Origin: a virus
Length of the DNA stretch: 22,191 nucleotides
Direction: 5' to 3' (one strand)
Virus record (IMG/VR): IMGVR_UViG_3300021139_000169
Coordinates: 1-22,191 of that record
Shown: positions 1,747 to 20,975 of the stretch, piece after piece
How the letters are laid out: each line of letters starts with the position of its first letter
Position numbering within the stretch: position 1 is the stretch's first letter
The notes under the pieces: generated by a model
Seen by the model: the letters and a program-made list of their open reading frames with translations, nothing else
What the model was told of the DNA's origin: nothing
The model's database searches: none
Program-made: the position numbers and the translations under genes

Positions 1747-1752
1747 TACTTA
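1747..1752 (-). promoter_or_regulatory. Late-promoter-like TAAGTA box before terL
   Basis: Minus strand reads TAAGTA, then 6 bases, then the terL ATG. It belongs to the TAARTA set found before many genes here and resembles the core of the T4 late promoter TATAAATA. Transcription starting about 6 bases downstream would give a leaderless or almost leaderless mRNA. Confidence 0.55.
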
Positions 1753-1777
1753 CTATGGATCTAGCACTAGTCAAAAG

Positions 1778-1783
1778 TAAGTT
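1778..1783 (+). promoter_or_regulatory. TAAGTT box before the 224-residue gene (variant late-promoter-like site)
   Basis: TAAGTT followed by 5 bases (ATAGT) and ATG at 1789. It differs from TAARTA at the last base but keeps the spacing. It is divergent from the terL box about 30 bases away. Confidence 0.4.
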
Positions 1784-1788
1784 ATAGT

Positions 1789-2463
1789 ATGAACAATTTA
1801 GTTGTTACTAATAATAAGTTTAATTCTAATGGTTACTGGGTAAAAACTATTGAGGGTTTTGATAAGTTTCCAACAGCTGGTGGTCAGATTATATACCCTG
1901 GCCCTGAACATTTAGAGTTATTTGATCAGGACGGTTTTGCTATGAGCAATATAGAACAATGGTTTGCAAATGCAAATAAAGAAACTCTATCAACTCACTA
2001 CACTGATCAAGAATGTTTACGGCAACCGTGGATTAAACAAGAAGGGGTAGTGTTTGAGGGTACCAATCTTAATCACAGCTTGTTATTTGAGCGGAGAGGT
2101 TTTAAAGGAGAAGCACTAGAAAAGCTTAAACTGTGGGCACAATGGAATACTCAACTTTACAAGCTCATTAAGTTGAGGCCAAAATGGGGTTTAGATTTTT
2201 CTATAGACTACACTGATAAAGAGGGTAACTGTATAGAGGTTTTACACTATGAACATGATGAATTTAGCTATGAAAAAATAGAGGAAAGAAGAATCTTAGT
2301 TGAACCTGTATTTTTAAATAAAGACTGGGATGATATTGCTAAACAAATGATTAAACGTAAAAATGAGTGGGGACATTTAGATTTATTTGCACAGGGATTT
2401 TGGAAGTGTAACTTTTTAGGCATACCTAAAGACAATCAAAAAATGATTTCCTGGGAGGTCTAA
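1789..2463 (+). CDS. Conserved-looking phage protein of unknown function, 224 aa
   Basis: I do not recognise a named family with confidence. The protein is rich in Trp and aromatic residues (for example WGLDFSIDYTD near 133-143 and EWGHLDLF near 193-200). There is no signal peptide, no membrane segment and no catalytic motif I can identify. A C-terminal pattern of the type FSIDYxDxxGNxxEVLHYEHD, then DW, then EWxxLDLF, gives the impression of a conserved fold seen in other T4-like phages, but I cannot verify that. The ATG at 1789 follows a TAAGTT box at the usual 5-base spacing. It is the first gene of the plus-strand run opposite the terminase and ends 33 bases before the nucleotidyltransferase gene. 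Confidence 0.85.
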   Translation: MNNLVVTNNKFNSNGYWVKTIEGFDKFPTAGGQIIYPGPEHLELFDQDGFAMSNIEQWFANANKETLSTHYTDQECLRQPWIKQEGVVFEGTNLNHSLLFERRGFKGEALEKLKLWAQWNTQLYKLIKLRPKWGLDFSIDYTDKEGNCIEVLHYEHDEFSYEKIEERRILVEPVFLNKDWDDIAKQMIKRKNEWGHLDLFAQGFWKCNFLGIPKDNQKMISWEV

Positions 2464-2480
2464 TACATTTAGATATTACG

Positions 2481-2486
2481 TAAGTA
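2481..2486 (+). promoter_or_regulatory. TAAGTA box before the nucleotidyltransferase-like gene
   Basis: TAAGTATTTAAATA lies upstream of ATG 2497. The TAAGTA is 10 bases from the ATG, a wider spacing than elsewhere. A leader of a few bases would be expected. Confidence 0.45.
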
Positions 2487-2496
2487 TTTAAATAAT

Positions 2497-3564
2497 ATGT
2501 TACCCGTTGATAAGCTTACGTTTGAATACCACGACACTCTTAATCCATTAGTGTGGAACGGGAATACTATTAACCCAGATGTTAAGAACAAATTATTAGA
2601 AGTAGCTGAAGCATTTTTAGAATCTATAGAAATACCAGTCGATGTTGAAGATATAACTTTGACTGGTTCTTTAGCTAACTATAACTATACTGAATATAGT
2701 GACTTTGATTTACATGTTATAACAGACTGTAGAGAGTATAATATAGACGAGGCTTTACTTAAAGACTATTTTAAAGCTAAAAAGACTGTTTGGAACAGTA
2801 CTCATGAAATTAAAGTTAAAAACTATGATGTAGAAGTATATATACAAGATATACTTGAACCGCATCATTCTACAGGTGTATATTCGTTAAAGAACGATAC
2901 TTGGGTGCATAAACCTGAAAAATCAGGTCATATAGATAAAAAAGAGTTAGCTAAAAAGGCTGAAGCGATGAGACATATGATTGACCATGCTTTAAGCGAT
3001 AAATGTGACTTAGAGTGTGCTGAAAATGTAAAAGATAAAATTTTAAAAACTAGACAAGCTGGTCTAGTTAAAGGCGGGGAGTACTCTATAGAAAATTTAG
3101 CGTATAAAGAGTTGAGACGTACTAAAGATATTGATAGGTTAATACAAGGCGTAATAGCTAAGAGAGATAAAGAGCTATCTTTAAACCAAGAAGCCGAAAC
3201 TTTCAAGACGTTTATGTCTCAACCAGGCATGACTAGCGGTAAAGGTAGTCGCGGTCCAAGACATCAATCTCCTACGGCGGGTATGAGCAAGTTAACTAGA
3301 CACGATACAAAATCGGTCAGTATTATTGCTAAGACTCACAGAGAGATGGAGACTCCTTTTCCTGAAATTGAAAACTTAAAAAAGAAACCACGTGGTAAAA
3401 TATATATTATACCTCAAACCGCTCAAGCAATTGCTCGTTTTTATAGTATGAATATGGATAAGGTAAATACCGAGCCTCGCGGTCTAAGTACTAGTGGCAT
3501 TGTACTCGGTTTTGATCCAATTGTAAGAAGACACTATTTAGAAAAGAAAGAAAAAGGCAAATAA
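2497..3564 (+). CDS. Nucleotidyltransferase-fold protein with basic C-terminal extension
   Basis: 355 aa. The N-terminal half carries the polymerase-beta-like nucleotidyltransferase signature: GS at residues 57-58, then SDFD at 68-71, with a likely third carboxylate in DVEVY (E113). The following segment HHSTGVYSL and a Trp-containing stretch match a family of nucleotidyltransferase-like proteins common in T4-like marine phages. Residues about 215-355 form a Lys/Arg-rich extension containing a Gly/Ser/Arg-rich linker (near 241-262). The substrate is unknown; nucleotide transfer to RNA, protein or a small molecule are all possible. The stop overlaps the next start (TAATG), so the two genes are probably translationally coupled. 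Its position beside structural genes could mean a virion-associated or late function, but this is inference. Confidence 0.8.
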   Translation: MLPVDKLTFEYHDTLNPLVWNGNTINPDVKNKLLEVAEAFLESIEIPVDVEDITLTGSLANYNYTEYSDFDLHVITDCREYNIDEALLKDYFKAKKTVWNSTHEIKVKNYDVEVYIQDILEPHHSTGVYSLKNDTWVHKPEKSGHIDKKELAKKAEAMRHMIDHALSDKCDLECAENVKDKILKTRQAGLVKGGEYSIENLAYKELRRTKDIDRLIQGVIAKRDKELSLNQEAETFKTFMSQPGMTSGKGSRGPRHQSPTAGMSKLTRHDTKSVSIIAKTHREMETPFPEIENLKKKPRGKIYIIPQTAQAIARFYSMNMDKVNTEPRGLSTSGIVLGFDPIVRRHYLEKKEKGK

Positions 3565-4175
3565 TGGCACTCGGACCTATAACACAACAGTCTATTCTTA
3601 ATAAAAGTAGAAAAGATAAATTTCTACTCACGTTAAACCTGCCTGACGCTCTTAAAAAGATTAATATATTAAATCAAAGCGACAGAACAAATGATGGAGT
3701 ATATCTAGATTCTTTGCAATATTCGGTTTACGGTACAGTTGTACCTGCTACCGCAATAAATCCTGTCGATTTACCATTTTCCGGTCAAACTTTAAGCGTA
3801 ACTTCTAACAAAAGAGAGAAGTACCAAAACATTACTGTAAACTTTACAGTAGATAACAATTATAACAACTGGTGGGTATTATGGAAGTGGTTGGATTATA
3901 TAAACGGCGCTACAAGTAGTACTATGGATCCAGATAACCTAACACAACTACCTCAAACACCAACTCAATATACAGGCTTAGCAAATCTACAACCTTACCA
4001 AACAAGCGTAGTGGTGGAGGGGTTGGATGAATATAACAATAAGAAAATCCGTTGGACGTATAGCAAAGCCTTTATTACAAATTTAACAGGCATAGCTTAT
4101 AGTTATAGAGATGCTGATCAGTTAGAGTCTTCATTTACGTTCTCGTTCAGCCAGTTGACTTCAGAATTACTGTAA
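3564..4175 (+). CDS. Tail-tube-fold protein, tube-initiator (gp54)-like
   Basis: 203 aa. The protein has the sequence rhythm of phage tube-fold proteins: a beta-strand KFLLTLNLP (19-27), a loop VYGTVVPAT, a Pro/Gly turn LPFSGQTL, then VNFTVDNNYNNWWVLWKWL (92-110). The pattern xFxVDxxYxNxxxLxxWL is typical of T4-like baseplate-tube junction proteins of the gp54/gp48 class. It ends with FTFSFSQL, a terminal strand. It overlaps the upstream gene by one base (TAATG) and has no promoter motif of its own, so it is co-transcribed. A tail-tube initiator or other tube-end role fits, but a tail completion protein is also possible. Confidence 0.6.
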   Translation: MALGPITQQSILNKSRKDKFLLTLNLPDALKKINILNQSDRTNDGVYLDSLQYSVYGTVVPATAINPVDLPFSGQTLSVTSNKREKYQNITVNFTVDNNYNNWWVLWKWLDYINGATSSTMDPDNLTQLPQTPTQYTGLANLQPYQTSVVVEGLDEYNNKKIRWTYSKAFITNLTGIAYSYRDADQLESSFTFSFSQLTSELL

Positions 4176-4179
4176 AACA

Positions 4180-4203
4180 ACAAGGTTTTCTCGCGGAAAA
4201 GCC
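4180..4203 (+). other. Imperfect hairpin between the 203-aa gene and the sheath gene
   Basis: GG TTTTC TCGCG GAAAA G CC can fold as a 5-bp stem extended by 2 GC pairs across a one-base bulge. No T-run follows, so it is not a standard rho-independent terminator. It directly precedes two TAAATA boxes and might mark the 3' end of the upstream transcript. Confidence 0.35.
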
Positions 4204-4213
4204 TAAATAATAG

Positions 4214-4219
4214 TAAATA
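4214..4219 (+). promoter_or_regulatory. TAAATA box before the sheath gene (second of two in tandem)
   Basis: TAAATA, 5 bases (CTACT), then the sheath ATG. Another TAAATA lies 10 bases upstream at 4204-4209. There is no Shine-Dalgarno in the interval. It is a strong member of the TAARTA-N5-ATG set, in front of what should be one of the most highly expressed genes. Confidence 0.6.
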
Positions 4220-4224
4220 CTACT

Positions 4225-6507
4225 ATGGCTACTTTACGTCAAATACAATCCCCTGGTGTACAAATTAATGAAATCGATCTAAGCCAAACAACAAGCGTAC
4301 CTAATGGTACTAATGTGTTTATTGCAGGTTTTGCTGCTCAAGGTCCTGCTAATGAAATTATAAGCCTTACAACAGGTAACGATTTTACTAATATTTTCGG
4401 TACACCTACTAATGCAGCCGAACGTTATTTTTATTATTCCGTACAACAACAGTTTAATGCAGGTACAAACGCTCAAGTAAGTGTTTATCGTTTACCTTAT
4501 GGTGGTGGAATGGGAGATGGTTATGCAGCTAACAAATACAGTGCTTTAGTATTCCCAGTACTACCAGCTTTAACACCAAGCACAACTACAGCAGCTGCAG
4601 CTTCAACAACTACAGCATTCATGAGTGCAAGTACATATTATCTTGCAGCCCCACAACTTATTGAACTTTCTCAAGACGATTACGTAACTTTAAAACAAAA
4701 CGGTATTAACTGGAGCACAACTGGCGGTGGTGCAGCTCCAACTATTAATAGTGTTGCTGATTTAACAGCAAACGGTATCGGTTTAGTAGTATTAAACGAA
4801 TCTCAAACAACTATTAACGAAAAGTTTGAAGGTCTTTATTTAAATCTTGCTGATAATCTTAACTTAAACCCAACAACAGCAATGTCTGCTGTTCAAAACG
4901 TATTCAGTATTACAGCTGAACAATCATCGTTTGGTTTAACAGGTGCTAATGTTTATCAAGAGATTCCATCAAGCCGTTTAAGCTTCCAATTATCAGCTAC
5001 AGCAGCAGATCCAAAGCCAAGCGTTTCACAGTTAATCGAAAACATTCCACAATACGACATTTCAAATGTAGGTGGTACAGGCTTTGATGACTTAGCGATC
5101 GTTTCTCTTATTAAAGTAAGAACATCTCCTTTCGGTAATAACCCATTACAGTTATCATATAGCTTACAAGAAGGTTATGCTACATCGTTCTATGCTAACC
5201 GTACAGTACAAGACAAAAACGGTGGTGCAGCTAAGAGCGACTTTATTGAAACAGTAATCAACAATACTTCACCTAACTTAATAGTATTCCTTAACCCTAA
5301 CATTTCAAACAATATTAAATGGTTAGACAATGACGGTAATGCTGCAAAACAAGTCAGAGTATTAACTCCTTTTAATCAAACAGGCAACTATAAAGCAGCA
5401 ACTAGCCTATTCCCATTAGGTGTTTATGCTCCTTCGTTAGATACAACTAACGTAAAGACAATCGGTGATGTTGGTGCAAAACTTGATAACGCTTTAAGTT
5501 TAGCTGGTAATGCAGATGTATACAATATTGACGTTGTAGTAGACGGTGGTTTATCGACTGTTGCAGCTATTGCACAAACAGGCACATTTGATGATACAGC
5601 ATACGGTACAGCAGTTCAATCTGCAGTAGACAATTTAACAGAATCTGATGGTAACTATACACCAGATACTATTGTCGGTACTTGGTCTCAAATTACTCAA
5701 AAGTTTGTAGACTTTACTACATTCCAACGTAAAGATTGTATCTTTATTTCTGACCCATTACGTCAAATTTTCGTACAAGGTGCAGACTTCAAGACATTAA
5801 AAGATCCTTCAACAAACTTCTCAAGCAACATTTACTGGCCGCTACGTAACTCCTATCAAGGGGTTAATACAAGCTATGCTACAACATATGGTAACTGGGT
5901 CAAAGTTATTGATTCATTTACTTCAAAAGCTACTTGGTTGCCATTCTCTGGTTTTGCTGCAGCAATCTATACAAGTAACGATGCAGTAGCTTATCCTTGG
6001 GCAGCACCTGCTGGTGCAAATCGTGGTACCGTAACTGGTATTGTTGATATTGCAGTTAACCCAAATCAAAAGCAGCGCGATTTACTTTACAAGATTGCAA
6101 TCAACCCAGTAGTAAACACTCCTGGTACTGGTTTCTCAATTCAAGGTCAAAAGACTTTATTACAGACACCGAGTGCATTTGATCGTATTAATGTTCGTCG
6201 TTTATTCCTCTTCTTAGAGAAATCAGTACTACAGACAAGCAAATCGTTCTTATTTGAACCAAACACAACGTTTACACGCAACAGATTGGTTAATACAATT
6301 AATCCAGTATTTGACTTAGCTAAGAATACTCAAGGCGTTTACGATTATTTAATTGTATGTAACGACACAAATAATACTCCAGACGTTATTGATGATAACT
6401 CGCTTGTTGTAGACATTTACATTAAGCCAGTTCGTACAGCAGAGTTCATTCTAGTTAACTTCTACTGCACGAAAACATCTCAAAACTTCCAAGAGTTATT
6501 ACAATAA
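4225..6507 (+). CDS. gp18: Tail sheath protein (T4 gp18-like)
   Basis: Contractile sheath subunit, 760 aa, slightly longer than T4 gp18. The N-terminus has the sheath signature SPGVQINEIDLS (about 9-20), followed by FIAGFAAQGPANE and FGTPTNAAERYFY. The C-terminal domain, which binds the tube and forms inter-subunit contacts, is very well conserved: INVRRLFLFLEKSV, FEPN, YDYLIVCNDTNNTPDVID and VDIYIKPVRTAEFI in order. The variable middle (about 110-500) corresponds to the surface-exposed domains and contains an Ala/Thr-rich tract near residues 115-135. Codon choice drifts towards AAC, TTC, GCA and ACA compared with the genes to its right, as expected for a very abundant product. It is monocistronic by spacing, with its own TAAATA box. 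Confidence 0.96.
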   Translation: MATLRQIQSPGVQINEIDLSQTTSVPNGTNVFIAGFAAQGPANEIISLTTGNDFTNIFGTPTNAAERYFYYSVQQQFNAGTNAQVSVYRLPYGGGMGDGYAANKYSALVFPVLPALTPSTTTAAAASTTTAFMSASTYYLAAPQLIELSQDDYVTLKQNGINWSTTGGGAAPTINSVADLTANGIGLVVLNESQTTINEKFEGLYLNLADNLNLNPTTAMSAVQNVFSITAEQSSFGLTGANVYQEIPSSRLSFQLSATAADPKPSVSQLIENIPQYDISNVGGTGFDDLAIVSLIKVRTSPFGNNPLQLSYSLQEGYATSFYANRTVQDKNGGAAKSDFIETVINNTSPNLIVFLNPNISNNIKWLDNDGNAAKQVRVLTPFNQTGNYKAATSLFPLGVYAPSLDTTNVKTIGDVGAKLDNALSLAGNADVYNIDVVVDGGLSTVAAIAQTGTFDDTAYGTAVQSAVDNLTESDGNYTPDTIVGTWSQITQKFVDFTTFQRKDCIFISDPLRQIFVQGADFKTLKDPSTNFSSNIYWPLRNSYQGVNTSYATTYGNWVKVIDSFTSKATWLPFSGFAAAIYTSNDAVAYPWAAPAGANRGTVTGIVDIAVNPNQKQRDLLYKIAINPVVNTPGTGFSIQGQKTLLQTPSAFDRINVRRLFLFLEKSVLQTSKSFLFEPNTTFTRNRLVNTINPVFDLAKNTQGVYDYLIVCNDTNNTPDVIDDNSLVVDIYIKPVRTAEFILVNFYCTKTSQNFQELLQ

Positions 6508-6515
6508 CCTCAACA

Positions 6516-6521
6516 TAAATA
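6516..6521 (+). promoter_or_regulatory. TAAATA box before the tail tube gene
   Basis: CATAAATA followed by 6 bases and ATG 6528. This is the closest match in the window to the T4 late consensus TATAAATA (7 of 8 bases). No Shine-Dalgarno is present. Confidence 0.6.
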
Positions 6522-6527
6522 TTTAAT

Positions 6528-7049: not shown

Positions 7050-7071
7050 TTCCAATAAAGCTTATATTATT

Positions 7072-7097
7072 AAACCCGGCGTAAGTCGGGTTTTTTA
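7072..7097 (+). terminator. Rho-independent terminator after the tube gene
   Basis: AACCCGGC GTAA GTCGGGTT followed by TTTT: a GC-rich stem (one G-T wobble) with a 4-base loop and a T-run. It separates the highly expressed sheath/tube unit from the following tube-like genes. Confidence 0.85.
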
Positions 7098-7109
7098 TTG
7101 TTCTAAGCT

Positions 7110-7115
7110 TAAGTA
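7110..7115 (+). promoter_or_regulatory. TAAGTA box before the second tube-like gene
   Basis: TAAGTA, 5 bases (TTAAT), then ATG 7121, directly after the terminator. The combination of terminator then box then start codon supports the box being a promoter. Confidence 0.62.
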
Positions 7116-7120
7116 TTAAT

Positions 7121-7681: not shown

Positions 7682-7683
7682 TC

Positions 7684-8361: not shown

Positions 8362-8362
8362 A

Positions 8363-9004
8363 ATGATAATTTCAAACATAAGTCAATTTTTAAAATCTGT
8401 ATTAGCTAGTCCTGACTTTCATATACCTATAGAGGCAAACTTTGTTGTAGGGTTTGACAATTTAGATCATATTATAGGTAATTTAAACTCTACAATACCT
8501 GATAGAATAATTAAAACCGGAGATTGGGGTATAGTTAAAGAGGGGTACGATATTTTCTTTGCAAATGGTGTTACTATACCAGGGGAAACAGTTACTTCTA
8601 GTAAAGCTGGGTTTTCTGCAGGAGGAGACGGACTGTATGGTGGTTTACTTTCAGGCCCAGTTTTAACCGGTCGTTCAAACTTAACTAATTTCGAAATAGT
8701 GTTTTTAGAAACAAGCCAGTCGTTTGCAGATCAAGTCATAAGGCCATGGATAGTTAATGCAGCTCATTACGGTCTATTTGCTAGAAAAAAAGATTCAAAA
8801 CAAAATTTTAAAACAGATGTAACTGTTGCTTTTAAGAAAAACACGTCATCTAATTCTAACGACCCGGTAAATCGTAAAACTATAGTGTTTAAAGATGCTG
8901 TACCAACAAGTATAGAAGGTTATAGTGCAAGTTATGGTGGATCTAAAGTTACTGCTCGTAATATTAAGACTACATGGACATACTCTACATATGAAATAAG
9001 TTAA
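8363..9004 (+). CDS. Tube-fold tail protein (divergent), possibly baseplate-tube junction
   Basis: 213 aa. More divergent than its neighbours, but the layout persists: a strand EANFVVGF, a loop ending TIPGE (71-75), a Gly-rich loop SAGGDGLYGGLLSG, strand NFEIVFLET (109-117), then a helix-turn FADQVIRPWIVNAAHYGLFAR that resembles a segment of T4-like tube-initiator and tube-cap proteins. The end, TWTYSTYEIS, is a terminal strand. Role inferred: an end-piece of the tube (initiator, adaptor or terminator), not the bulk polymer. It lies one base after the upstream stop. Confidence 0.65.
   Translation: MIISNISQFLKSVLASPDFHIPIEANFVVGFDNLDHIIGNLNSTIPDRIIKTGDWGIVKEGYDIFFANGVTIPGETVTSSKAGFSAGGDGLYGGLLSGPVLTGRSNLTNFEIVFLETSQSFADQVIRPWIVNAAHYGLFARKKDSKQNFKTDVTVAFKKNTSSNSNDPVNRKTIVFKDAVPTSIEGYSASYGGSKVTARNIKTTWTYSTYEIS
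8997..9002 (+). promoter_or_regulatory. Possible TAAGTT box before the first gp26-like gene
   Basis: TAAGTT ends 7 bases before ATG 9010 and overlaps the stop of the upstream gene. This variant hexamer is also seen before the gene at 1789. It is weaker than the other sites; read-through from the upstream unit is equally possible. Confidence 0.25.
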
Positions 9005-9009
9005 TATAA

Positions 9010-9930: not shown

Positions 9931-9940
9931 TATATTAATG

Positions 9941-9946
9941 TAAGTA
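9941..9946 (+). promoter_or_regulatory. TAAGTA box before gp26-like copy 2
   Basis: TAAGTA, 5 bases (CTTTT), then ATG 9952. The spacing matches the main set and no Shine-Dalgarno is seen. Confidence 0.6.
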
Positions 9947-9951
9947 CTTTT

Positions 9952-10692
9952 ATGTCTGATATAAATGAATTTATTGCAAGTATTAATGCTAATGCGGTAA
10001 AAAACTCCATAGAGGTGTTTTTACCTAGCTTTCAAAGAATAGTGAAGTTTAAACCTGTTAGTACAAAGCAATATAAAAATCTGTACGCTTGTATTAAAGA
10101 CAATATACTGTATAATACTAAGTTTGTTATAGTAACGTATAACATTATTAAAGATAACTGCTTAGAACCAGATATACTAGATCAAATAAACATTATCGAT
10201 AGAGCGTTTATTTTATTAGCATTAAGAAAAAATATTTTAGGCACTACAGTAAAAAATATCGACTTTAGTTCTAATTTGGCACTTGCTTCAACTATAGCAT
10301 TACCTGAAGAGGTGTTATTAACTATTGATAATATAAAAATTAATACTCAAATACCAACTTTAAAAGAAGTATATGAAATGGAAGTTGAACTTAGAGGGGA
10401 TCTTAAAGAAGAAACAGTCACTATTAATACTTTAACTGAAAATCTTATTATCGGTGGTTGCTGTAAGTTTATAAAAAATATACAAGTTGAGGACACTGAT
10501 TTAAATTTTAAAACTTTTAATTATAAAGAACGTATAAGATTAGTTGAAAACTTACCAGCTAGTACATTAAACAGTATTCAAAGTTTTGCAGAAAAAGTAA
10601 CTAATTTACAGGATAGCGTTACTAATGTATTAAACAGTGACGGTACTCGCTTTCAATTTTATATAAATGCGGATTTCTTTTTAGCTGAATAA
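9952..10692 (+). CDS. Baseplate hub/assembly protein, T4 gp26-like family (copy 2)
   Basis: 246 aa. It shares with the preceding protein LPS, then exactly 12 residues, then KQY (24-26 and 39-41), followed by LLALR (88-92) at the equivalent helical position. Overall identity by eye is low, so this is an old duplication or two related families. It is mostly helical with no membrane segment. The N-terminus is about 15 residues longer than copy 1. It has its own TAAGTA box, although only 21 bases separate it from copy 1, so the two may be expressed at different levels. Confidence 0.62.
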   Translation: MSDINEFIASINANAVKNSIEVFLPSFQRIVKFKPVSTKQYKNLYACIKDNILYNTKFVIVTYNIIKDNCLEPDILDQINIIDRAFILLALRKNILGTTVKNIDFSSNLALASTIALPEEVLLTIDNIKINTQIPTLKEVYEMEVELRGDLKEETVTINTLTENLIIGGCCKFIKNIQVEDTDLNFKTFNYKERIRLVENLPASTLNSIQSFAEKVTNLQDSVTNVLNSDGTRFQFYINADFFLAE

Positions 10693-10713
10693 CATAAAGA
10701 CTGGTTTAGTACC

Positions 10714-10719
10714 TAAGTA
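10714..10719 (+). promoter_or_regulatory. TAAGTA box before the tape measure gene
   Basis: TAAGTA, 5 bases (TTTTT), then ATG 10725; a typical member of the set without a Shine-Dalgarno. Confidence 0.6.
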
Positions 10720-10724
10720 TTTTT

Positions 10725-12560
10725 ATGAGCGACACTGCAGACGTAGAATCTGGTGACAAAGCAAAATTTGAAATTGCTTTAAACACGCTCACGGATGCTT
10801 TAGTTAAAGGAGACGGATCAAATCCATCTCTAAAAGAAACGATAAAAAAATTAAGCGAAAATGTTGATCAGTTAACTAGAAAAACTGAAGAAGCTTCTAC
10901 TAGAACAAACAATAAGAATAATACTGAAGAAGGATATAATAAGAGCGCTTTAAATTATGCGCAGGCAATTTTAAATGAACGTAAAGCTAAGTTTGAAGAC
11001 AAGGGAGAAGATGAATCAGAACGCTCAACAAAAGAAAAATTAAAAAGAGTTGAAGATATAACTTCAGATAAGTTAAAACAAGTGGAAGGTTTTATTGGTA
11101 GATTTATTCCGAAAACTGTACAAAATATATTAGGGTTTATCGGTGGTAAGGAAATACTTGAGAGTCTTAATAAAGCTGTTATAGAAAAAGCTCAAGGTTT
11201 GTTTACTGGAGAAGAGCTTAAAGAAGCAGAAGCAATAAAAGAGTTAGAAAGAAAAATAAATAAAAAAACTCTTGAGCAAAAAAAACTACAAGCAGCGAGC
11301 GGGCAGGATCTTAATAATTTAAACAAAGAGCTTAGCGAACAGTACGGTGTAACCACTGAAGATAATTTAAGCGATGTTTCTAAAGGAGTACCACCGGTTA
11401 AGGCTCCAGACGATACTACTGCTGATGAAAAACAGGAAGTAAAAACAGAAACACCTACTTTACTACCTGTTAACGGCAACTCTGCTATAACAACTTCTCC
11501 TATAACAGTAGACGAAACTTCAACAGGTAGTAAAGTAGTTAAAGAAGGTGGGGCAGTTGTTAGCGAAGAGAATGCCCCTGCTGAAATAGTATTAACAAAA
11601 ATATCTGATGAAGCAGCTGATGCAATTGCAAATGCATTAAAAAAGGTATTAACCGAAAAAAGAGAAAACACGAAAACTGATACTGATGAAGTTAAAAAGA
11701 AAGTAGAGGGTGCTAGTAAAAATGTAGATCGGGTTAGTCAAGGTATAGATAACCTCGCAGCTAAAAATAAACCGCAATATGAAAACATAGAAGGTCAAGC
11801 AGGGGAAGGGTTACCTACAACATCAGATAAAAAAGGAAGTAAAGGTCCTGGTTTAGTACCCACAGTTGCTGAGGACGTTATTAAAGAAGCTGCAATGGCT
11901 CGTTTTTTAAAAATTGCAGCAAAAGACATAGGCAAGGCTGAAGCAGTTACAACTACGGGTATTGCAGCTGCAGAAGTAGCATCAGCTGGTGCAAATACCC
12001 CGCTTATACCTGTAGAACTACTCGCCGGTGCTGGATTTGGAGTTATAGAAGCTTTGACGGATTATTTTGCTGATTCTCAAAACAGACAGGCAAAGGGTGG
12101 CCCTATAAAAACCCCGAACAAGCCAGTATTGGTAGGGGAAGAAGGCCCAGAAATATTTGTGCCTGAAAGTACAGGAAACATAATACCTAATAACCTTTTA
12201 ACCGGTAAAGAAAAAGATACAACGAACCCTGCTGCAGTAGAAAAAATAACCTCTCTTTTAACACAGGTTATATCCTTACCTTCAGAAAAATTAGCGGCTA
12301 TATCTAATACTACTAATATAGGAGACAGCTCTAGTAGTACACTACAAACTATGAATAAAACGTTGCTAGATATAAGCGACAAGCTTGATGTAAAAAATAA
12401 CACTAATAACGATCAGTCTTCATCAAAACTTACTGGTTTAATGAATTCTAGTAACAATTCTTCAAATAGCACTATAAACATAATATCTCAAGGCAATCCT
12501 ATTACTAATTCTCGTCTTAGAATAGATAACTTTTTATACAATAGGAGGGCTAACGCTTAA
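10725..12560 (+). CDS. Tape measure protein (T4 gp29-like role)
   Basis: 611 aa, close to T4 gp29 (590), which sets a tail of about 90 nm. It is strongly helical and charged at residues 1-215, with heptad-like stretches. A low-complexity Thr/Pro/Val linker follows (about 220-290). A hydrophobic Ala/Gly-rich helix (about 403-446) may be the membrane-active segment known in other tape measures. Diagnostic is the segment at 456-494: AKGGPI, then VGEEGPEIFVPESTG, then IIPNN, a motif found in the C-terminal part of many tape measure proteins. The last 100 residues are Ser/Asn-rich. The family identification rests on this motif, size, composition and gene order. Confidence 0.85.
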   Translation: MSDTADVESGDKAKFEIALNTLTDALVKGDGSNPSLKETIKKLSENVDQLTRKTEEASTRTNNKNNTEEGYNKSALNYAQAILNERKAKFEDKGEDESERSTKEKLKRVEDITSDKLKQVEGFIGRFIPKTVQNILGFIGGKEILESLNKAVIEKAQGLFTGEELKEAEAIKELERKINKKTLEQKKLQAASGQDLNNLNKELSEQYGVTTEDNLSDVSKGVPPVKAPDDTTADEKQEVKTETPTLLPVNGNSAITTSPITVDETSTGSKVVKEGGAVVSEENAPAEIVLTKISDEAADAIANALKKVLTEKRENTKTDTDEVKKKVEGASKNVDRVSQGIDNLAAKNKPQYENIEGQAGEGLPTTSDKKGSKGPGLVPTVAEDVIKEAAMARFLKIAAKDIGKAEAVTTTGIAAAEVASAGANTPLIPVELLAGAGFGVIEALTDYFADSQNRQAKGGPIKTPNKPVLVGEEGPEIFVPESTGNIIPNNLLTGKEKDTTNPAAVEKITSLLTQVISLPSEKLAAISNTTNIGDSSSSTLQTMNKTLLDISDKLDVKNNTNNDQSSSKLTGLMNSSNNSSNSTINIISQGNPITNSRLRIDNFLYNRRANA

Positions 12561-12563
12561 ATA
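12558..12563 (+). promoter_or_regulatory. TAAATA box before the gp48-like gene
   Basis: TAAATA starts inside the stop codon of the tape measure gene and is followed by 5 bases (ATATT) and ATG 12569. An AGGAGGGC sequence lies 26 bases upstream of the ATG, too far to act as its Shine-Dalgarno. Confidence 0.55.
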
Positions 12564-12568
12564 ATATT

Positions 12569-14038: not shown

Positions 14039-14039
14039 T

Positions 14040-15952: not shown

Positions 15953-17199
15953 TGTCTCTTAGTGCACAGTTTGTAGTACAATCAATAGACTATTACAATA
16001 CTCTATTAACTATACCTGGCTACACGGTGCCTGGTTACGAAGATGAGCAGTACATTACTAAGGCTCACTATAGTACAGACTTTTCTTCTAACCCTATTGG
16101 TTCTAAAATAGACTTTTTTACTCATTTAAACGACCCTTGTGTTAGTATTGTTGCACCTCACCCGATTTTTACTATACCTAAGCCTTTATCCGCATTAGAC
16201 CCTCAATGGTTTAGCGGTTGGTGGGATCAGGCAATGTACTACTCTCACCCATTAGTCAAAGAGCAGTTAAGTGCTAACTACCCTAACATATATCAAGACT
16301 TTTCAGACTCAGTAGGTACCCTAGCATATGCCCCTACTGAACAAGATTATAATAGTCCTGCATTTGGTAGAGACACAATTAATCCTTCTATACAGCATAA
16401 AGTAATATCAGACTTGTTTAATGAAATGGACAAGCTAAACAACGATATGTTCAAGTTGTACCAAGCAGCTACACCTAAAGGGCTTGGTTTAAAGAGCGAT
16501 ACATTCTTAGGTCAAGTACTATCTAGACAGAGTGGTTCATATAGTATTAAGCTTCAAGTAAAGGGTAAGTTCGGTGCATTAACAGCAAAACTACCATTGG
16601 ATACTATACTTGGTGGTAACTTAAATGCAGATCCGTTATGGAGTAATAAATCTACTATTAACAACATACAAGCTGCAGTTGATAAGGCTAACAAGTTTAT
16701 TACAGAGCATTCTCCTGGTAGAATGATATCTAATGCATTGAATGACTTTAAGAAAAATATTAAAGAATACTTAAATAAAATCTCTCTACCTAATATTAGT
16801 AAGTTACTGGGTATACCACAAGTTAATGTAACGGCTATAAGTAACACTATCAAGACGTTACAACAGTATGGTAGTGCTATAAATGCTACTATAGGACAGG
16901 TACAAGGTACATTGACCGCGGTACAACAAGGTATAGCTTCAGTGGCAAGCACTATTAACAAAGAAACAAATCAAATTACAAGTGTGGTTAATACAGTGGT
17001 AAGAGCTCCTGGAGCAGTTACCGGTGCTAATGCTGTGGTGAATGTAGGTGGTGCTGATGCTTCTTTAAGTTACCAGCTGCCTAATCAAACAGTCGGTCTA
17101 AGTAAGAATGCTGTGACTATTGTACCAGGAACAGTTAAATCTAATGGCGATCCAGCCGTAGTAAAGATTTCAACATTACAACAACCTCCAGGAAATTAA
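15952..17199 (+). CDS. Unrecognised baseplate-cluster protein, 415 aa
   Basis: I cannot place this in a known family. Residues 1-225 are aromatic-rich and look globular (for example PQWFSGWWDQAMYYSHP at 84-100). Residues about 230-350 are rich in Asn, Thr, Ile, Val and Gln and appear helical, with a repeated pattern of hydrophobic residues every three or four positions (SNTIKTLQQYGSAINATI, GQVQGTLTAVQQGIASVAS). The last 65 residues are Gly/Val/Asn-rich. There is no signal peptide and no catalytic motif. It is coupled by TAATG to the gp27-like hub gene upstream and lies one base before the spike gene. A structural role in the hub or as a partner of the spike is the simplest reading, by position only. 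Confidence 0.6.
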   Translation: MSLSAQFVVQSIDYYNTLLTIPGYTVPGYEDEQYITKAHYSTDFSSNPIGSKIDFFTHLNDPCVSIVAPHPIFTIPKPLSALDPQWFSGWWDQAMYYSHPLVKEQLSANYPNIYQDFSDSVGTLAYAPTEQDYNSPAFGRDTINPSIQHKVISDLFNEMDKLNNDMFKLYQAATPKGLGLKSDTFLGQVLSRQSGSYSIKLQVKGKFGALTAKLPLDTILGGNLNADPLWSNKSTINNIQAAVDKANKFITEHSPGRMISNALNDFKKNIKEYLNKISLPNISKLLGIPQVNVTAISNTIKTLQQYGSAINATIGQVQGTLTAVQQGIASVASTINKETNQITSVVNTVVRAPGAVTGANAVVNVGGADASLSYQLPNQTVGLSKNAVTIVPGTVKSNGDPAVVKISTLQQPPGN

Positions 17200-17200
17200 T

Positions 17201-19366
17201 ATGGTAGACAAATTTAACAGTATTTATCTAGGAATAGTAGTACAAAACAATGACCCAGAACATAGAGGCAGGGTTAAGGTTTGGGTACCGCACGTATCAT
17301 TAAACGTGTATGATAAGTGGAGTCAGTTAAAACAAGACCAATCGTTCTCGTTTCCTGGTTCTCCTGGTGGAGAGAACATTAGTGCTATATTACCAGAACT
17401 AAAAGACGCGTTACCTTGGGCTGAATTTGCTAGTCCTATTGTAGGTGCTTCTACAGCTGGTTACTACAATGCTGCAACAGATACTAATACAGTTTCAGAT
17501 GCACCACTAGCATATGCACACCCTAATAGCAATTACGCTAACTCTTCTTCTGCTACTAATTTAGACCCTGAACAAAAGGGAGGTAAGCCCGGGGCATATT
17601 TTGAGACTAACCCGGTAAGTGATGCTTTTGGGAATACTTCTAAAATAAATAGCGCTCACTTCAATCAGTTTTCAAATACATATAAACCTGCCACTTATTC
17701 CAACTCTGCTAAAGGTTTATTCTCTATACCTAATGTAGGTGCGCATGTTTGGGTATTCTTTAAAGAAGGTTCACCATTGTTTCCGGTTTATTTTGGTGCA
17801 TCATTTGGTAGTGCTGATTTTAATAGTATATTCAAATCTGGAGATAATATCTATCCAGATTATCCTGATGCGTTTGAAAATAAAGACCGCAGAGCCGGTC
17901 CTATTACAAACGATAATGTAAGATATCAAAACAAAATGGTACTCAATCAAAAGGGTGCTGCTATTGAAATCATTAACACTACTGATAGGGAATCTTACAA
18001 GGTAACTCATTACAAAGGTGGTTACTACGAAATAAATAACAAGTATACTGCTATGTTTAACCCTGATAATTTTCAGTTGTTAACACTAGCCGATAAGTTC
18101 GAAACAGTTAATGGCCACAACAATCTTTTTGTACAGAGAGACTTTGATAACATAGTACAAGGCGATCATTACCTTAAAGTAGGTAATTTTAATACTAAAG
18201 CTGCTGCTAAATGGTATGACTTATTCTCTAAATCGGGTCTAGCTAATATAACAGATTTAAATGCATATCAAGCTACATTACAAAGTCTAACGAACCCATT
18301 ATCAAACCATGAAAAGGATATGGGATTTGGTGGTAATAGTTTTGAGTTTATATCTAAACATAAAACAGTTGCAGTTGGTTTGGTTCGTAATACCTCGCCT
18401 GCATATTATCTAGATAATCTTAGCTTGCTTACTTCGGGTAAATCTGTTGCTACTCGTGTTGGTCCTTTTATAGCTGCACCGTTTGAATTCGGTGCTAACT
18501 ATGTTAGTTTTGCATCTTATAAAGAGCTTAGTGTACCAGATATGCCTGGTGGTAACTATGACATATTCGCTATGAACAGACTTAAAATGCAGTCTGGTAA
18601 CGGTGGTATGACCATGCAAACCGGCGGTAACATGAAAATATCAGGTGGTACAGTAGAGGTAAGAGGCGACCTAGTTACAATGGGTACTAAGGATGGAACC
18701 TTAGGATTATATGGTAGTTTAGTTACTATTGAAGCAGATGTACTAAGTTTAAAGAACGTTAATAAAGGTCAAGTAGTAGTTGACAGTACTTTGGGTGTGA
18801 CTAATAACGTTATTATTGGTGGTGGTGCGTATATTGGTGGTGAATTATTTGTTAATCACATTACCGCCCCTATAGAGTATCAAGTAACTGAAAACACTCA
18901 AATAATAGCTTCTGGTCCGATAGTAAACCCTGAAGGTACACCAGATGTGCCTGCTTCTGGTTGGAACATAATAAACTCAGACGTTATGGGTACAATGCAG
19001 CTTATTATACCACCATTAAATGTGGTTGGTAGTGCAACTACTTACTCAATAGTAAACGTACAAGTACTTGGCGGTCAAATAGACGTTAATGCAGCGGGTT
19101 CTGGTACATTAACTATTGCACAACCACACTCTCACGTATTTAAAAATATACCTCTCACCTTAACCGCAGATAAGATTAACCAAGGTTTAGCTGCAGCGGC
19201 TGGGGTTGGTGCTAATGACTCAACACCTATTCAATCTGAAGACAGAGTAGATGGTAGAATACAAACTGTGGGTATCCCACCACCCGTTATTTACGTTACG
19301 GGTACTGCCGGTGCACCGTTTGGTGGTCCAAACGGGCCCGGTTCCCAACAACCAGATCTAGCTTAA
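17201..19366 (+). CDS. Baseplate central spike (T4 gp5-like), no lysozyme domain visible
   Basis: 721 aa. An N-terminal OB-fold runs over about 5-205: IYLGIVVQNNDPEHRGRVKVWVP, then LPWAEFAS (about 71-78), then SIPNVGAHVWVFFKEGSPLFPVYFGA (175-200). This is the pattern by which gp5/VgrG-type spikes bind the hub. A large insertion (about 85-165) sits inside it. Residues about 255-540 contain repeating short strands typical of a beta-helix (for example HNNLFVQRDFDNIVQGDHYLKVGN, and the GG-rich 465-550 region). Near the C-terminus QPHSHVF gives an HxH motif (643-645), similar to metal-binding spike tips. No muramidase domain is inserted between OB-fold and helix as in T4 gp5. The stop overlaps that of the convergent gene. 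Confidence 0.85.
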   Translation: MVDKFNSIYLGIVVQNNDPEHRGRVKVWVPHVSLNVYDKWSQLKQDQSFSFPGSPGGENISAILPELKDALPWAEFASPIVGASTAGYYNAATDTNTVSDAPLAYAHPNSNYANSSSATNLDPEQKGGKPGAYFETNPVSDAFGNTSKINSAHFNQFSNTYKPATYSNSAKGLFSIPNVGAHVWVFFKEGSPLFPVYFGASFGSADFNSIFKSGDNIYPDYPDAFENKDRRAGPITNDNVRYQNKMVLNQKGAAIEIINTTDRESYKVTHYKGGYYEINNKYTAMFNPDNFQLLTLADKFETVNGHNNLFVQRDFDNIVQGDHYLKVGNFNTKAAAKWYDLFSKSGLANITDLNAYQATLQSLTNPLSNHEKDMGFGGNSFEFISKHKTVAVGLVRNTSPAYYLDNLSLLTSGKSVATRVGPFIAAPFEFGANYVSFASYKELSVPDMPGGNYDIFAMNRLKMQSGNGGMTMQTGGNMKISGGTVEVRGDLVTMGTKDGTLGLYGSLVTIEADVLSLKNVNKGQVVVDSTLGVTNNVIIGGGAYIGGELFVNHITAPIEYQVTENTQIIASGPIVNPEGTPDVPASGWNIINSDVMGTMQLIIPPLNVVGSATTYSIVNVQVLGGQIDVNAAGSGTLTIAQPHSHVFKNIPLTLTADKINQGLAAAAGVGANDSTPIQSEDRVDGRIQTVGIPPPVIYVTGTAGAPFGGPNGPGSQQPDLA

Positions 19367-19857
19367 GATCTAGGCAATACGTTATTAGTTGTAAGAACGT
19401 AAACAGGTTCTTTAGTCTTAATCTTAAGATTGTTAGTCTTAAAGAACTTGTTCGGTACGTTAGCAATAGCTTGACCAATAGATGATACTGGATACTTTTG
19501 GCCCTTCTTAGAAGCGTTAAAGTTGTATGCACCGCTCTTAATAGAGTCTAATACAGTAGCTACATCATCATTTTCTGGAATCTGTAATACCCAACCTACT
19601 AAGTCTTTATTAATAATACCGTTTGTATCAGATACTAAGATAACGAACTGTTGTTTTGGCTTTGGTTCACCTTCTTCATCATTACCAGTTTCTTTAGAAA
19701 CATCAACTGCTTCTTCTTCTGTTTTAGCTGCTTCATCAACAGCTACTGTAGCATTACTTAAGAGCTCGAGGATTTCATCAATCGTCTCTTGGTTATCTAC
19801 AGTCTTTTGCAGCGCTGCAACTACAGCTTGTAATTTAACGTATTCTTCTTTTGACAT
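19363..19857 (-). CDS. Acidic protein of unknown function, 164 aa
   Basis: Not recognised. The N-terminal third is a predicted helix (LQAVVAALQKTVDNQETIDEI), followed by an acidic Glu/Asp/Lys linker (about 41-68) and a compact C-terminal domain starting QFVILVSDTNG. That domain includes VGWVLQIPEND (87-97), AYNFNASKKGQKYPVSSIGQA and a terminal KTKEPVYVLTTNNVLP. The order suggests a small alpha/beta fold joined by a flexible linker. It is on the opposite strand to the tail cluster and its stop codon overlaps the spike gene's stop by two bases. The start at 19857 follows a 41-base stretch after a minus-strand TAAGTA box. A virion or accessory role cannot be decided from sequence. Confidence 0.8.
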   Translation of the reverse strand: MSKEEYVKLQAVVAALQKTVDNQETIDEILELLSNATVAVDEAAKTEEEAVDVSKETGNDEEGEPKPKQQFVILVSDTNGIINKDLVGWVLQIPENDDVATVLDSIKSGAYNFNASKKGQKYPVSSIGQAIANVPNKFFKTNNLKIKTKEPVYVLTTNNVLPRS

Positions 19858-19898
19858 AGTATGTTATTGGTTACAGGTACTATGTTATACCATATTTT

Positions 19899-19904
19899 TA
19901 CTTA
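19899..19904 (-). promoter_or_regulatory. TAAGTA box upstream of the 164-aa gene
   Basis: The minus strand reads TAAGTA, 5 bases (AAAAT), ATG GTA TAA. At the spacing used elsewhere the box therefore points to a two-codon open frame at 19885-19893. The real gene starts 41 bases after the box. An extended -10-like TGGTATAAC also lies here, so a host-type promoter is an alternative. Confidence 0.35.
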
Positions 19905-19910
19905 ATCAAG

Positions 19911-19916
19911 TATAAT
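19911..19916 (+). promoter_or_regulatory. Possible host-type -10 (TATAAT) upstream of the 74-aa gene
   Basis: A perfect TATAAT hexamer 53 bases before ATG 19969, but no convincing -35 at 16-18 bases. It may be chance in AT-rich DNA. Confidence 0.2.
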
Positions 19917-19951
19917 CCTTGGATTTTTCTTGTTTAAACACTGTACACACA

Positions 19952-19957
19952 TAAGTA
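19952..19957 (+). promoter_or_regulatory. TAAGTA box before the 74-aa gene
   Basis: ATAAGTATAG, with TAAGTA ending 11 bases before ATG 19969. The spacing is wider than the usual 5-6 bases and similar to the box before the gene at 2497. Confidence 0.45.
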
Positions 19958-19968
19958 TAGTCAATAAT

Positions 19969-20193
19969 ATGAAGTTTCAAGAGCTAATGGAACAGTATGG
20001 CATGATAAAGAAAGAACAGCGTATGTTCTACCCTAAAAACTTTAATCTGTCTGAAGGATTTCTTAAAGCACTTAAAGCTGAAATTGCTTTACAAGAAAAA
20101 GCAGGTATTACCCCTGAAAAGTTTTCACATAAACTTAATAGAGCATTACAGTTTCATATTTCAGAACATAAAAAAACCCCTGCACCGAAGTGA
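19969..20193 (+). CDS. Small hypothetical protein, 74 aa
   Basis: Translation from ATG 19969 gives MKFQELMEQYGMIKKEQRMF and on, with a helix-rich, basic composition. The open frame extends upstream to 19930, but the shorter start fits the TAAGTA box and the extension (MFKHCTHISIVNN) is out of character. The later part, LSEGFLKALKAEIALQEKAG and KFSHKLNRALQFHISEHK, suggests two amphipathic helices, as in small DNA- or protein-binding phage proteins, but no family is recognised. It ends with TGA inside the stem of the terminator that serves the convergent outer-membrane gene. Confidence 0.65.
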   Translation: MKFQELMEQYGMIKKEQRMFYPKNFNLSEGFLKALKAEIALQEKAGITPEKFSHKLNRALQFHISEHKKTPAPK

Positions 20194-20199
20194 GGGGTT
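20170..20199 (-). terminator. Rho-independent terminator of the outer-membrane protein gene, UUCG-type loop
   Basis: Minus strand reads AACCCCTCAC TTCG GTGCAGGGG followed by seven T. The stem CCCCT/AGGGG plus CAC/GTG with one bulged base closes a C(UUCG)G tetraloop, a very stable hairpin. It lies within the end of the plus-strand 74-aa gene, so it is encoded inside coding sequence. Confidence 0.9.
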
Positions 20200-20231
20200 A
20201 GATGTTTGTCGGGTGTGAATTGTTCTAGGTC

Positions 20232-20963
20232 TTAGAACTTGAATTTGTAACCAACGTTATAACCAGTGATTTGAGCGGCTGAGTCTGTTAATGAGGTGCG
20301 TTGAGCAAATAGATTTGCTGTTACACCGTGGAACTCAAGACCAACACCTGGTTGATAGTACTTCTTAACGTTCTTTAAAGCAGCAATAGTAGCAGCACCT
20401 GGATCGTTAAAGCCAACAACTAGTGCTGGAACAACTTTAAGAGCGCCAAATGTATTAATTGGTGTATTAACACCGAATTCATAGTTGTTGCTACGATTTA
20501 CCGTATCGTTAAGAGCACGGCCTTGCCAGTTAAGATGACCACCAAACCAGCTACCACTTAATTTAACGAATGGTAAGAGGTTGTGATTAGCTTGACCAGC
20601 AGCTTCTGCTACGTTTACGTGTCTTAATTCTGCACCGAGTGTTAAGTCAGCGAGAGGAGACGTGAATTTATAACCAGCATCGAGATAAACACGCTTTAGA
20701 CCAGAAGCATCGGTTGTCGATACTGTTTTACCAGCTACAACTGATGTTGTGGTTGTGTCGCTAACTTTGTCAAATGCTGTTACAGCAAGATCAATGCCGT
20801 ATACATTTGTATCAACGCCAGCTGTTGCATAGTTAGTGCCAACTAATTGACCTTGTTGGATTAACTTTGAAGTAAATCCGAGGTCTAAGTCACCGCTAAC
20901 TGGAGCAGCATTTACAACGATTGCGATTAATGACAATGCGAGGAATGTTAATAGTTTCTTCAT
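20232..20963 (-). CDS. Phage-borne outer-membrane beta-barrel protein
   Basis: 243 aa. The N-terminus is a classic Sec signal peptide: MKKLL, a hydrophobic core, and cleavage predicted after VNA (residue 19, before APVSG). The mature part is built of alternating short strands (DLDLGFTSKLIQQGQ, VYLDAGYKFTSPL, LTLGAELRHVNV, LNWQGRALND, LVVGFNDPG, VGLEFHGVTANLFAQ) and ends NVGYKFKF. A C-terminal Phe on an aromatic strand is the known recognition signal for outer-membrane barrel insertion. At about 225 residues a barrel of 8-12 strands is likely. It resembles short environmental porin-like proteins in rhythm; I do not assign a substrate. TAAATA lies 6 bases before ATG and a strong terminator follows, so it is an independent unit. 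It may alter surface permeability or block superinfection (inference). Confidence 0.82.
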   Translation of the reverse strand: MKKLLTFLALSLIAIVVNAAPVSGDLDLGFTSKLIQQGQLVGTNYATAGVDTNVYGIDLAVTAFDKVSDTTTTSVVAGKTVSTTDASGLKRVYLDAGYKFTSPLADLTLGAELRHVNVAEAAGQANHNLLPFVKLSGSWFGGHLNWQGRALNDTVNRSNNYEFGVNTPINTFGALKVVPALVVGFNDPGAATIAALKNVKKYYQPGVGLEFHGVTANLFAQRTSLTDSAAQITGYNVGYKFKF

Positions 20964-20969
20964 ACTCTA

Positions 20970-20975
20970 TATTTA
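20970..20975 (-). promoter_or_regulatory. TAAATA box before the outer-membrane protein gene
   Basis: Minus strand ATATAAATA, 6 bases (TAGAGT), then ATG 20963. The extended ATATAAATA matches the T4 late consensus TATAAATA in full, so this gene is probably expressed late along with the virion genes. Confidence 0.6.

Follow-up and report, generated by a model that had tools for sequence, protein, structure and literature searches.

The stretch of DNA analysed here (hereafter the window) is the 22,191-base virus record IMGVR_UViG_3300021139_000169, which comes from a T4-like phage and has genes for terminase, tail sheath, tube-like and baseplate proteins. The terminase large subunit (terL; 1-1740, minus strand) is approximately 39% identical to the best phage records among the matches listed. 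The tail sheath (gp18-like) gene (4225-6507, plus strand) shows approximately 30% identity to T4-like sheaths over about half its length in tblastn searches, and was used as the anchor for finding relatives. These include a near-identical relative of 140,180 bases (G001) and many more distant contigs; from metagenome numbers, we take this uncultured lineage to be probably a freshwater (lake) one. Shortly before the ATG of many genes lies the hexamer TAARTA, which a preliminary description of the window had proposed to be a late promoter producing leaderless mRNAs. The results of the current study make it very probable that TAARTA is a T4-type late promoter which, in this lineage, has been moved against the genes, giving leaderless or near-leaderless late mRNAs. 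Throughout, spacing denotes the number of bases between the box and the ATG, and the predicted leader is the spacing minus 5.

In the window, TAARTA is found at spacing 5 before genes 4225, 7121, 9952, 10725 and 12569, and at spacing 6 before gene 6528, terL (start codon at 1740, minus strand) and gene 20963 (minus strand). Wider spacings occur before genes 2497 (10) and 19969 (11), and TAAGTT variants precede genes 1789 (spacing 5) and 9010 (spacing 7), all at the places first described. Genes that overlap or abut an upstream gene (3564, 7684, 8363, 14040, 14396, 15952 and 17201) were said to lack the box, and indeed have no TAARTA within 50 bases upstream. The accompanying estimate that the hexamer should occur about once per 500-600 bases per strand was rough, as both strands of the window together hold 50 matches compared to 96.5 in dinucleotide shuffles. 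The claim that the fixed spacing is far from chance holds: nine TAARTA-ATG pairs (either strand) lie at spacing 5-6, whereas simulation with an order-2 Markov model (200 sequences) yields approximately 2.7 such pairs per sequence on average and never more than 7. The motif scan beyond the window that the preliminary description had called for was also carried out, and the lineage-wide step at spacing 5-6 which it revealed is the strong test.

For the lineage as a whole, we used a set of 41 hand-chosen stretches, i.e. the window, ten records or parts of records (among them 80,000 of the 82,476 bases of G014, 60,000 of 108,882 of G010 and 20,000 of 20,994 of G005) and 30 of 96 lineage loci. Gene calling relied on a simple script that accepted only ATG starts (and, for the spacing count, at least 80 amino acids); genes 45 bases or fewer from the end of a sequence, and those lacking an upstream neighbour, were left out of the counts. 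Of 1,042 called genes, 803 were left after dropping proteins at least 80% identical, and 36 of the 41 stretches still contribute. A gene was counted as a transcription-unit start (453 genes) if its neighbour is divergent or if 12 or more bases separate it from the upstream gene; the other 350 genes abut the upstream gene. At the 453 starts, TAARTA occurs 1, 3, 2, 2, 0, 67, 56, 17, 18, 28, 27, 4 and 5 times at spacings 0 to 12, respectively, i.e. spacings 0-4 together hold 8 boxes, compared to 67 at 5 and 56 at 6. Among the 257 starts with a box at spacing 5-21, the nearest box lies at 5-6 in 123, at 7-10 in 89 and at 11-21 in 45, which corresponds to predicted leaders of 0-1 base in 123 and of 2-16 bases in 134. 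The leaderless arrangement is therefore predicted to be the commonest single class of boxed start, but not the rule that the preliminary description had implied.

TAARTA tops its 60 permutations at spacing 5-6 (123, compared to a median of 6), and the patterns ranked second to fifth (57 to 48) either also match TAAATA or are its one-base shift. A triplet count made without gene calls in five records gave the same picture, with ATG the most enriched triplet after TAARTA at spacing 5 (53 vs 17.7 expected), and also at 6 (46 vs 17.7) and 9 (36). Leaderless mRNAs favour AUG over GUG and UUG. This preference is seen after TAARTA in the same records, where GTG and TTG are not clearly enriched at spacing 5 (13 vs 11.8 and 24 vs 23.5 expected) and show little or no enrichment at 6. 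The choice of start codon should not create the peak, because a spacing-5 box implies no in-frame stop. Abutting genes carry a box at spacing 5-6 in 37 of 350 cases, compared to 123 of the 453 transcription-unit starts, and in 29 of these 37 the stop codon of the upstream gene is the TAA of the box (23 at a gap of 8 and six at a gap of 9).

At spacing 5 the fourth base is G in 42 cases (TAAGTA), A in 25 (TAAATA), T in six (TAATTA) and C in none, although TAACTA outnumbers TAAGTA across G001 and G020 as wholes. The G at the fourth position, which the preliminary description had tentatively attributed to a diverged gp55-type sigma factor, is hence a real preference, and a diverged gp55 is a plausible cause of it. 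The preference varies with the spacing, with 75 G and 48 A at 5-6 compared to 41 G and 71 A at 9-22 (P 2e-4). A minor variant, TAART[TCG], which covers gene 1789, precedes 17 genes at spacing 5 and 14 at 6, and at most five at any other spacing. The bases downstream of the box are AT-rich (TTWWT at spacing 5), and T4 late promoters likewise have an AT-rich melting segment (PMC2988020).

The late transcription system of T4 is the textbook one; between a late promoter and its gene lies a leader, in most cases with a Shine-Dalgarno site. The T4 late box, TATAAATA, spans -13 to -6, which leaves five bases to +1 (PMC1524935). As the box ends at -6 in T4, spacing 5 would put +1 on the A of the ATG, and this geometry predicts a spacing floor of 5 provided that transcription can begin on the first base of the start codon but no further into it. 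The lineage resembles T4 in the core, which would lie at -11 to -6, and in a spacing limit that fits the same distance from box to start; it shares with T4 the placement before structural genes, and gp55 together with gp45. The core TAA.TA is kept, but R stands in place of A at -8 (G in 42 of 67 boxes at spacing 5) and the TA at -13/-12 is not conserved; compared to TATAAATA, the lineage box thus lacks that TA and accepts or prefers G at -8.

The boxes also favour the genes expected to be late. In spans picked from T4 homologues, boxed (5-21) transcription-unit starts make up 39 of 57 in structural spans compared to 10 of 44 in replication spans (three records pooled, Fisher P 7e-6), lateness here being inferred from the T4 homologues and not from expression. 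Per record, the counts were 19/26 vs 1/10 in G020, 10/19 vs 6/23 in G014 and 10/12 vs 3/11 in G012. Of 20 records searched, three encode gp55 (G014 and G020 of the lineage, and the distant relative G008) and four encode gp45, three of them belonging to the lineage (G012, G014 and G020). The search for homologues called for in the preliminary description hence succeeded for gp55 and gp45, in relatives, but not for gp33, which was not matched by BLAST.

The predicted leaders are almost devoid of Shine-Dalgarno-like sites, defined here as GGAG, GAGG or AGGA ending 3-12 bases before the ATG. Such sites precede two of the 453 non-redundant transcription-unit starts (four of all 626) and 34 of the 350 abutting genes; in the late region of T4, 15 of 21 transcription-unit starts have one. 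Among called genes, they occur in 1-4% in G001, G020 and G012 and in 9% of the 22 in the window. The lineage therefore seems to rely on leaderless or near-leaderless starts and on coupling within operons. Phage-encoded ribosomal proteins S21 and S1, possible aids to leaderless translation, were each found in none of 20 records, which may be fragments. At transcription-unit starts that lack a box, TAWWWT peaks weakly at spacing 6 (22 cases, with 15 at spacing 0 and at most 11 elsewhere), and host-type promoters might also be placed so as to give leaderless RNA. The Bacteroidetes-type promoter sequence, TANNTTTG, was tried as a further candidate and was not enriched (2/196, 7/257 and 4/350). To look for the host, bacterial genomes were searched with the porin-like protein of the window and with the sheath alignment, and neither search gave a relative.

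Several known systems resemble this arrangement in part. T4 has most TAARTA boxes of its late region 24-28 bases ahead of the ATG, with the frequent Shine-Dalgarno-like sites noted above, whereas the lineage has the box mainly at 5-10 with almost no such sites. In the phages Mosig, Melnitz, P-HM1, DLP6, P-RSM6, XG4 and phiM9 (sampled, like T4, as stretches of 21-50 kb) the boxes lie mostly 12-32 bases upstream, with at most two at spacing 5, and Shine-Dalgarno-like sites precede 20-65% of called genes (57% in T4). The T4-like Aeromonas phage Aeh1 has the late box CTAAATA, from -12, and resembles the lineage in that its late box has diverged along with its gp55; unlike the lineage it retains A at -8, and leaderless placement is not mentioned in the excerpted account (PMC1524935).

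The cultured Pelagibacter phage HTVC008M is intermediate. Of its 197 annotated genes, 12 carry TAARTA at a spacing of exactly 5 (among them those that start at 18916, 18943, 19456, 31132 and 49760), with 3, 2, 2, 0 and 1 at spacings 0-4 and three at 6. Like relatives of the window, it has gp55 and gp45, both of them annotated. It differs in that Shine-Dalgarno-like sites precede 98 of the 197 genes, some of its boxes are at spacings of 16-21, and the box is often TATAAATAG. At 18916 (minus strand) and 18943 (plus strand) of its genome (NC_020484.1), two divergent start codons with 26 bases between them each have TAAATA at spacing 5. A study of pelagimyophages reported that the prediction of middle and late promoters was unsuccessful (PMC7029224).

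Outside the T4-like phages, leaderless genes of the TA-led kind, in which TANNNT stands about 12 bases upstream, occur widely among bacteria (PMC3160421). They resemble the lineage in having a box approximately 10-12 bases before the start codon and no or a very short leader, but that box is the sigma-70 -10 element, while that of the lineage would be a T4-type late box. The late promoter of phiKZ, TATG, contains the letters ATG, a further likeness, but it is used by a phage-encoded multisubunit polymerase and transcription starts at the G, so the RNA is not leaderless at that ATG (PMC4666361). Leaders in AR9 measure 26-491 bases, in a paper which also states that phage transcripts are often leaderless (PMC5312081), and the late promoters of Ma-LMM01 are sigma-70-like (PMC5780444); no T4-type leaderless late promoter is described in the excerpted accounts of these two phages (PMC5312081, PMC5780444). 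Excerpts of the open-licence literature (including PMC9004378, PMC7892883, PMC2984593 and PMC3037559) likewise yielded no leaderless T4-type late mRNA, a survey that may miss T4 or cyanophage transcript maps published elsewhere. The Thermus phage P23-45 is reported to have leaderless transcripts.

We propose that the host RNA polymerase carrying a gp55-like sigma factor would read TAARTA, presumably helped by the gp45 clamp. With the box ending at -6, the first transcribed base at spacing 5 would be the A of the ATG, and a larger spacing would give a leader of the spacing minus 5 bases. About half of the boxed starts would then have a leader of 0-1 base and the others one of 2-16 bases, almost all without Shine-Dalgarno-like sites, and translation would begin from a 5'-terminal or near-terminal AUG. 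At the level of sequence, the late-promoter part of the preliminary description is supported by the T4-like spacing limit, the structural bias, the conservation of several boxes despite drift in their spacing and flanking bases, a terminator-like site directly upstream of one of them (described below) and the gp55 and gp45 of relatives; from these features and the scarcity of Shine-Dalgarno-like sites, we infer recognition by the lineage's gp55, the position of +1 and leaderless translation.

The boxes could instead be the -10 elements of a host sigma-70-type polymerase that makes leaderless mRNAs with no phage sigma factor. This would fit with the wide occurrence of TA-led leaderless genes in bacteria (PMC3160421), and the weak TAWWWT peak at spacing 6 in unboxed starts is where sigma-70 geometry expects it. 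That peak, however, looks like a separate class; the sixth base of TAARTA is A and not T, and a spacing floor of 5 would, under sigma-70 geometry, start the RNA inside the ATG. With the bias towards structural genes and the presence of gp55 in the lineage also speaking against it, we regard this explanation as improbable. That the ribosome recognises the box as a translation signal, AU-rich or Kozak-like as in those Bacteroidetes without Shine-Dalgarno sites, with the promoters elsewhere, seems to us quite improbable. The near absence of Shine-Dalgarno-like sites and the fact that spacing 5-6 is the largest class are in its favour, as is the use of Kozak-like bases upstream of the start in Bacteroidetes (PMC6847099). 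Yet the box is not tied to the ATG, since the same sequence slides from 5 to 21 and beyond, and it favours structural genes. Abutting genes, which need translation as well, have fewer boxes at 5-6, and the cut-off between none at spacing 4 and 67 at spacing 5 is more readily explained by a transcription start than by contacts with the ribosome.

It is also conceivable that the boxes are T4-type late promoters, but that the RNAs start further upstream at unrecognised promoters, the near boxes being minor or internal. TAAATA does occur twice in the sheath region, with an offset of 10 bases, and two boxes also precede gene 2497 (TAAGTA at spacing 10 and TAAATA at 2). On the other hand, the terminator-like site at 7072-7093 leaves little room for such promoters, divergent start codons are 48 bases apart in the window (1740/1789) and 26-27 apart in G001 (13864/13892 and 46258/46285), and no competing conserved box was found among the orthologous upstreams compared. 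We consider this explanation very unlikely indeed.

Several observations weigh against TAARTA being a late promoter set against the genes. A box at spacing 5-21 is present at only 257 of the 453 transcription-unit starts, and G020 taken alone has a weaker step (four boxes at 0-4 and nine at 5-6). Ten of the 44 early starts are boxed too, and G014 by itself shows a modest contrast (10/19 late, 6/23 early). In HTVC008M, boxes at spacing 5-6 precede 9 of 75 genes in the structural span (13.9-76.5 kb) and 6 of 122 outside it. Within the window, the sheath gene keeps a leader of 10 or more bases (predicted approximately 10-18), and the boxes of several genes are poorly conserved (7/19 for gene 9952 and 5/34 for gene 9010). 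The factors are a further concern. Neither gp55 nor gp45 was found in the window or G001, both of which are incomplete; phrog_234 (gp55) and phrog_223 (gp45) had no match in G001, and a comparison of 70 of its 151 proteins with PHROGs named none of them as a DNA polymerase, primase, replicative helicase or clamp. The relatives that carry these factors have sheaths 61% (G012), 54% (G014) and 52% (G020) identical. T4 gp33 had no BLAST match at E 1 in six gene sets, although a short divergent protein could escape such a search. As to the hydrophobic C-terminal clamp-binding motif of gp55, the G014 and G020 proteins show no segment aligning to the C-terminal ends of T4 and HTVC008M gp55, and the annotated P-RSM6 protein has none either.

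A broader proposal, which we advance tentatively as a possibility somewhat short of even, is that the lineage has given up Shine-Dalgarno leaders altogether. The gp55 promoters (at spacing 5) and perhaps host-type ones (TAWWWT at spacing 6) would put +1 at the A of the AUG; a module of 14 bases, for example TAAGTATTAATATG, could unite stop codon, promoter and start codon, and the preference of gp55 would have shifted to G at -8. If the late-promoter interpretation is true, a T4-type late system can drive leaderless mRNAs for virion proteins, and the arrangement is testable in the cultured HTVC008M. In uncultured T4-like phages, the box rule may be of use for locating transcription units and for revising start sites. 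The arrangement also hints at hosts with ribosomes that can use mRNAs with little or no leader. It may also help where late-promoter prediction failed in pelagimyophages (PMC7029224).

The individual boxes of the window differ in their conservation, which was counted over matches with at least 30% protein identity whose upstreams are distinct over 30 bases. The terL box (TAAGTA, 1747-1752, minus strand; spacing 6, predicted leader of one base) is matched by TAARTA at 5-6 in 12 of 15 distinct upstreams. Divergent from it, with 48 bases separating the two start codons, is the TAAGTT of gene 1789 (1778-1783, plus strand, as are the boxes that follow unless stated; spacing 5), for which relatives mostly have TAAGTT, TAAGTC or TAAATC at 5-6, and TAARTA itself in none of 12. 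Gene 2497 has TAAGTA at 2481-2486 (spacing 10, predicted leader of five bases), and 25 of 26 distinct upstreams carry one at 9-10. The tail-tube-like gene 6528 has TAAATA at 6516-6521 (spacing 6), with a box at 5-11 in all 33 distinct upstreams. For gene 7121, whose TAAGTA (7110-7115; spacing 5) would place +1 on the A of the ATG, all 25 distinct upstreams have the box, 24 of them at 5-6; low-identity matches in this count, and in those for tube-like genes, may include paralogues. Just upstream lies an intrinsic-terminator-like stem followed by TTTATTGTTC (7072-7093, plus strand), the first-listed of 17 terminator-like sites (9.6 expected by shuffling), and several relatives have a similar site directly ahead of the box.

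For the sheath gene, the spacing-5 box named in the preliminary description exists (TAAATA, 4214-4219) but is probably not the main one: the nearest relatives and a few others keep it, and many relatives read tataatactact, tataat, tatatc or other sequence at this site. The conserved box is the TAAATA at 4204-4209 (spacing 15, predicted leader of 10 bases), present in 32 of 33 distinct upstreams. In every aligned row, TAAATA (TAAGTA in the locus L023) lies approximately 15-23 bases before the ATG, within a conserved element that reads ccTAAATAATAGTA or near it, and no Shine-Dalgarno-like site is apparent in the predicted leader. Just before this box, at approximately 4184-4203, many relatives have a short hairpin-like stretch (e.g. 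GGTTTTC..GAAAAGCC) with variable stem sequences. Single folds upstream of the box averaged -4.9 kcal/mol compared to -2.6 kcal/mol for shuffled sequence (19 sequences), and RNAalifold gave no common structure for the stretch before the box.

Of the remaining boxes, the TAAGTA of gene 9952 (9941-9946; spacing 5) is one of the poorly conserved ones, and the TAAGTT of gene 9010 (8997-9002; spacing 7) is doubtful, its count of five in 34 distinct upstreams referring to TAARTA. Both of the two distinct upstreams found for gene 10725 have its TAAGTA (10714-10719; spacing 5). The TAAATA of gene 12569 (12558-12563; spacing 5) begins with the stop codon of the upstream gene (TAA, 12558-12560), and G001 has TAAGTA there. 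G001 shares the TAAGTA of gene 19969 (19952-19957; spacing 11, predicted leader of six bases) and the TAAATA of the porin-like gene 20963 (20970-20975, minus strand; spacing 6). Orthologous upstreams have a box in 7 of 32 cases for gene 3564 and 5 of 11 for 15952, and in none for 1789, 8363, 14040 and 14396; for gene 7684, it is present in 31 of 36 orthologues or paralogues, though absent from the gene in the window. Where boxes are conserved, the spacing shifts and A and G swap at the fourth base between orthologues. At 19891-19904 (minus strand), a spacing-5 box precedes ATG GTA TAA, a two-codon mini-open reading frame ahead of gene 19857, and G001 and G002 keep this box and ATG.

Other genes of the window and its relatives gave some further observations. 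By eye, terL appears to contain an intein-like insert of approximately 150 residues between points near ...ASRQIGKA and ...HNTTILTI; no intein family in Pfam matched it at E 0.01, and the Pfam terminase match begins at residue 242. The porin-like protein (20232-20963, minus strand) has no Pfam match, and no relative in phage records or bacterial genomes at the sensitivity used; it has an apparent signal peptide, again by eye. A lineage member (G003; 10193-10573 of its stretch L049) encodes a tmRNA with the tag GIKNRISSLVKAFTGSEELAFAA, with 20 tRNAs within 20 kb. The 20-60 kb stretch of G001 (L042 and L043) encodes several radical-SAM proteins, glycosyltransferase-like proteins and a Nol-like carbamoyltransferase, and some of the genes in this stretch also carry the late box.

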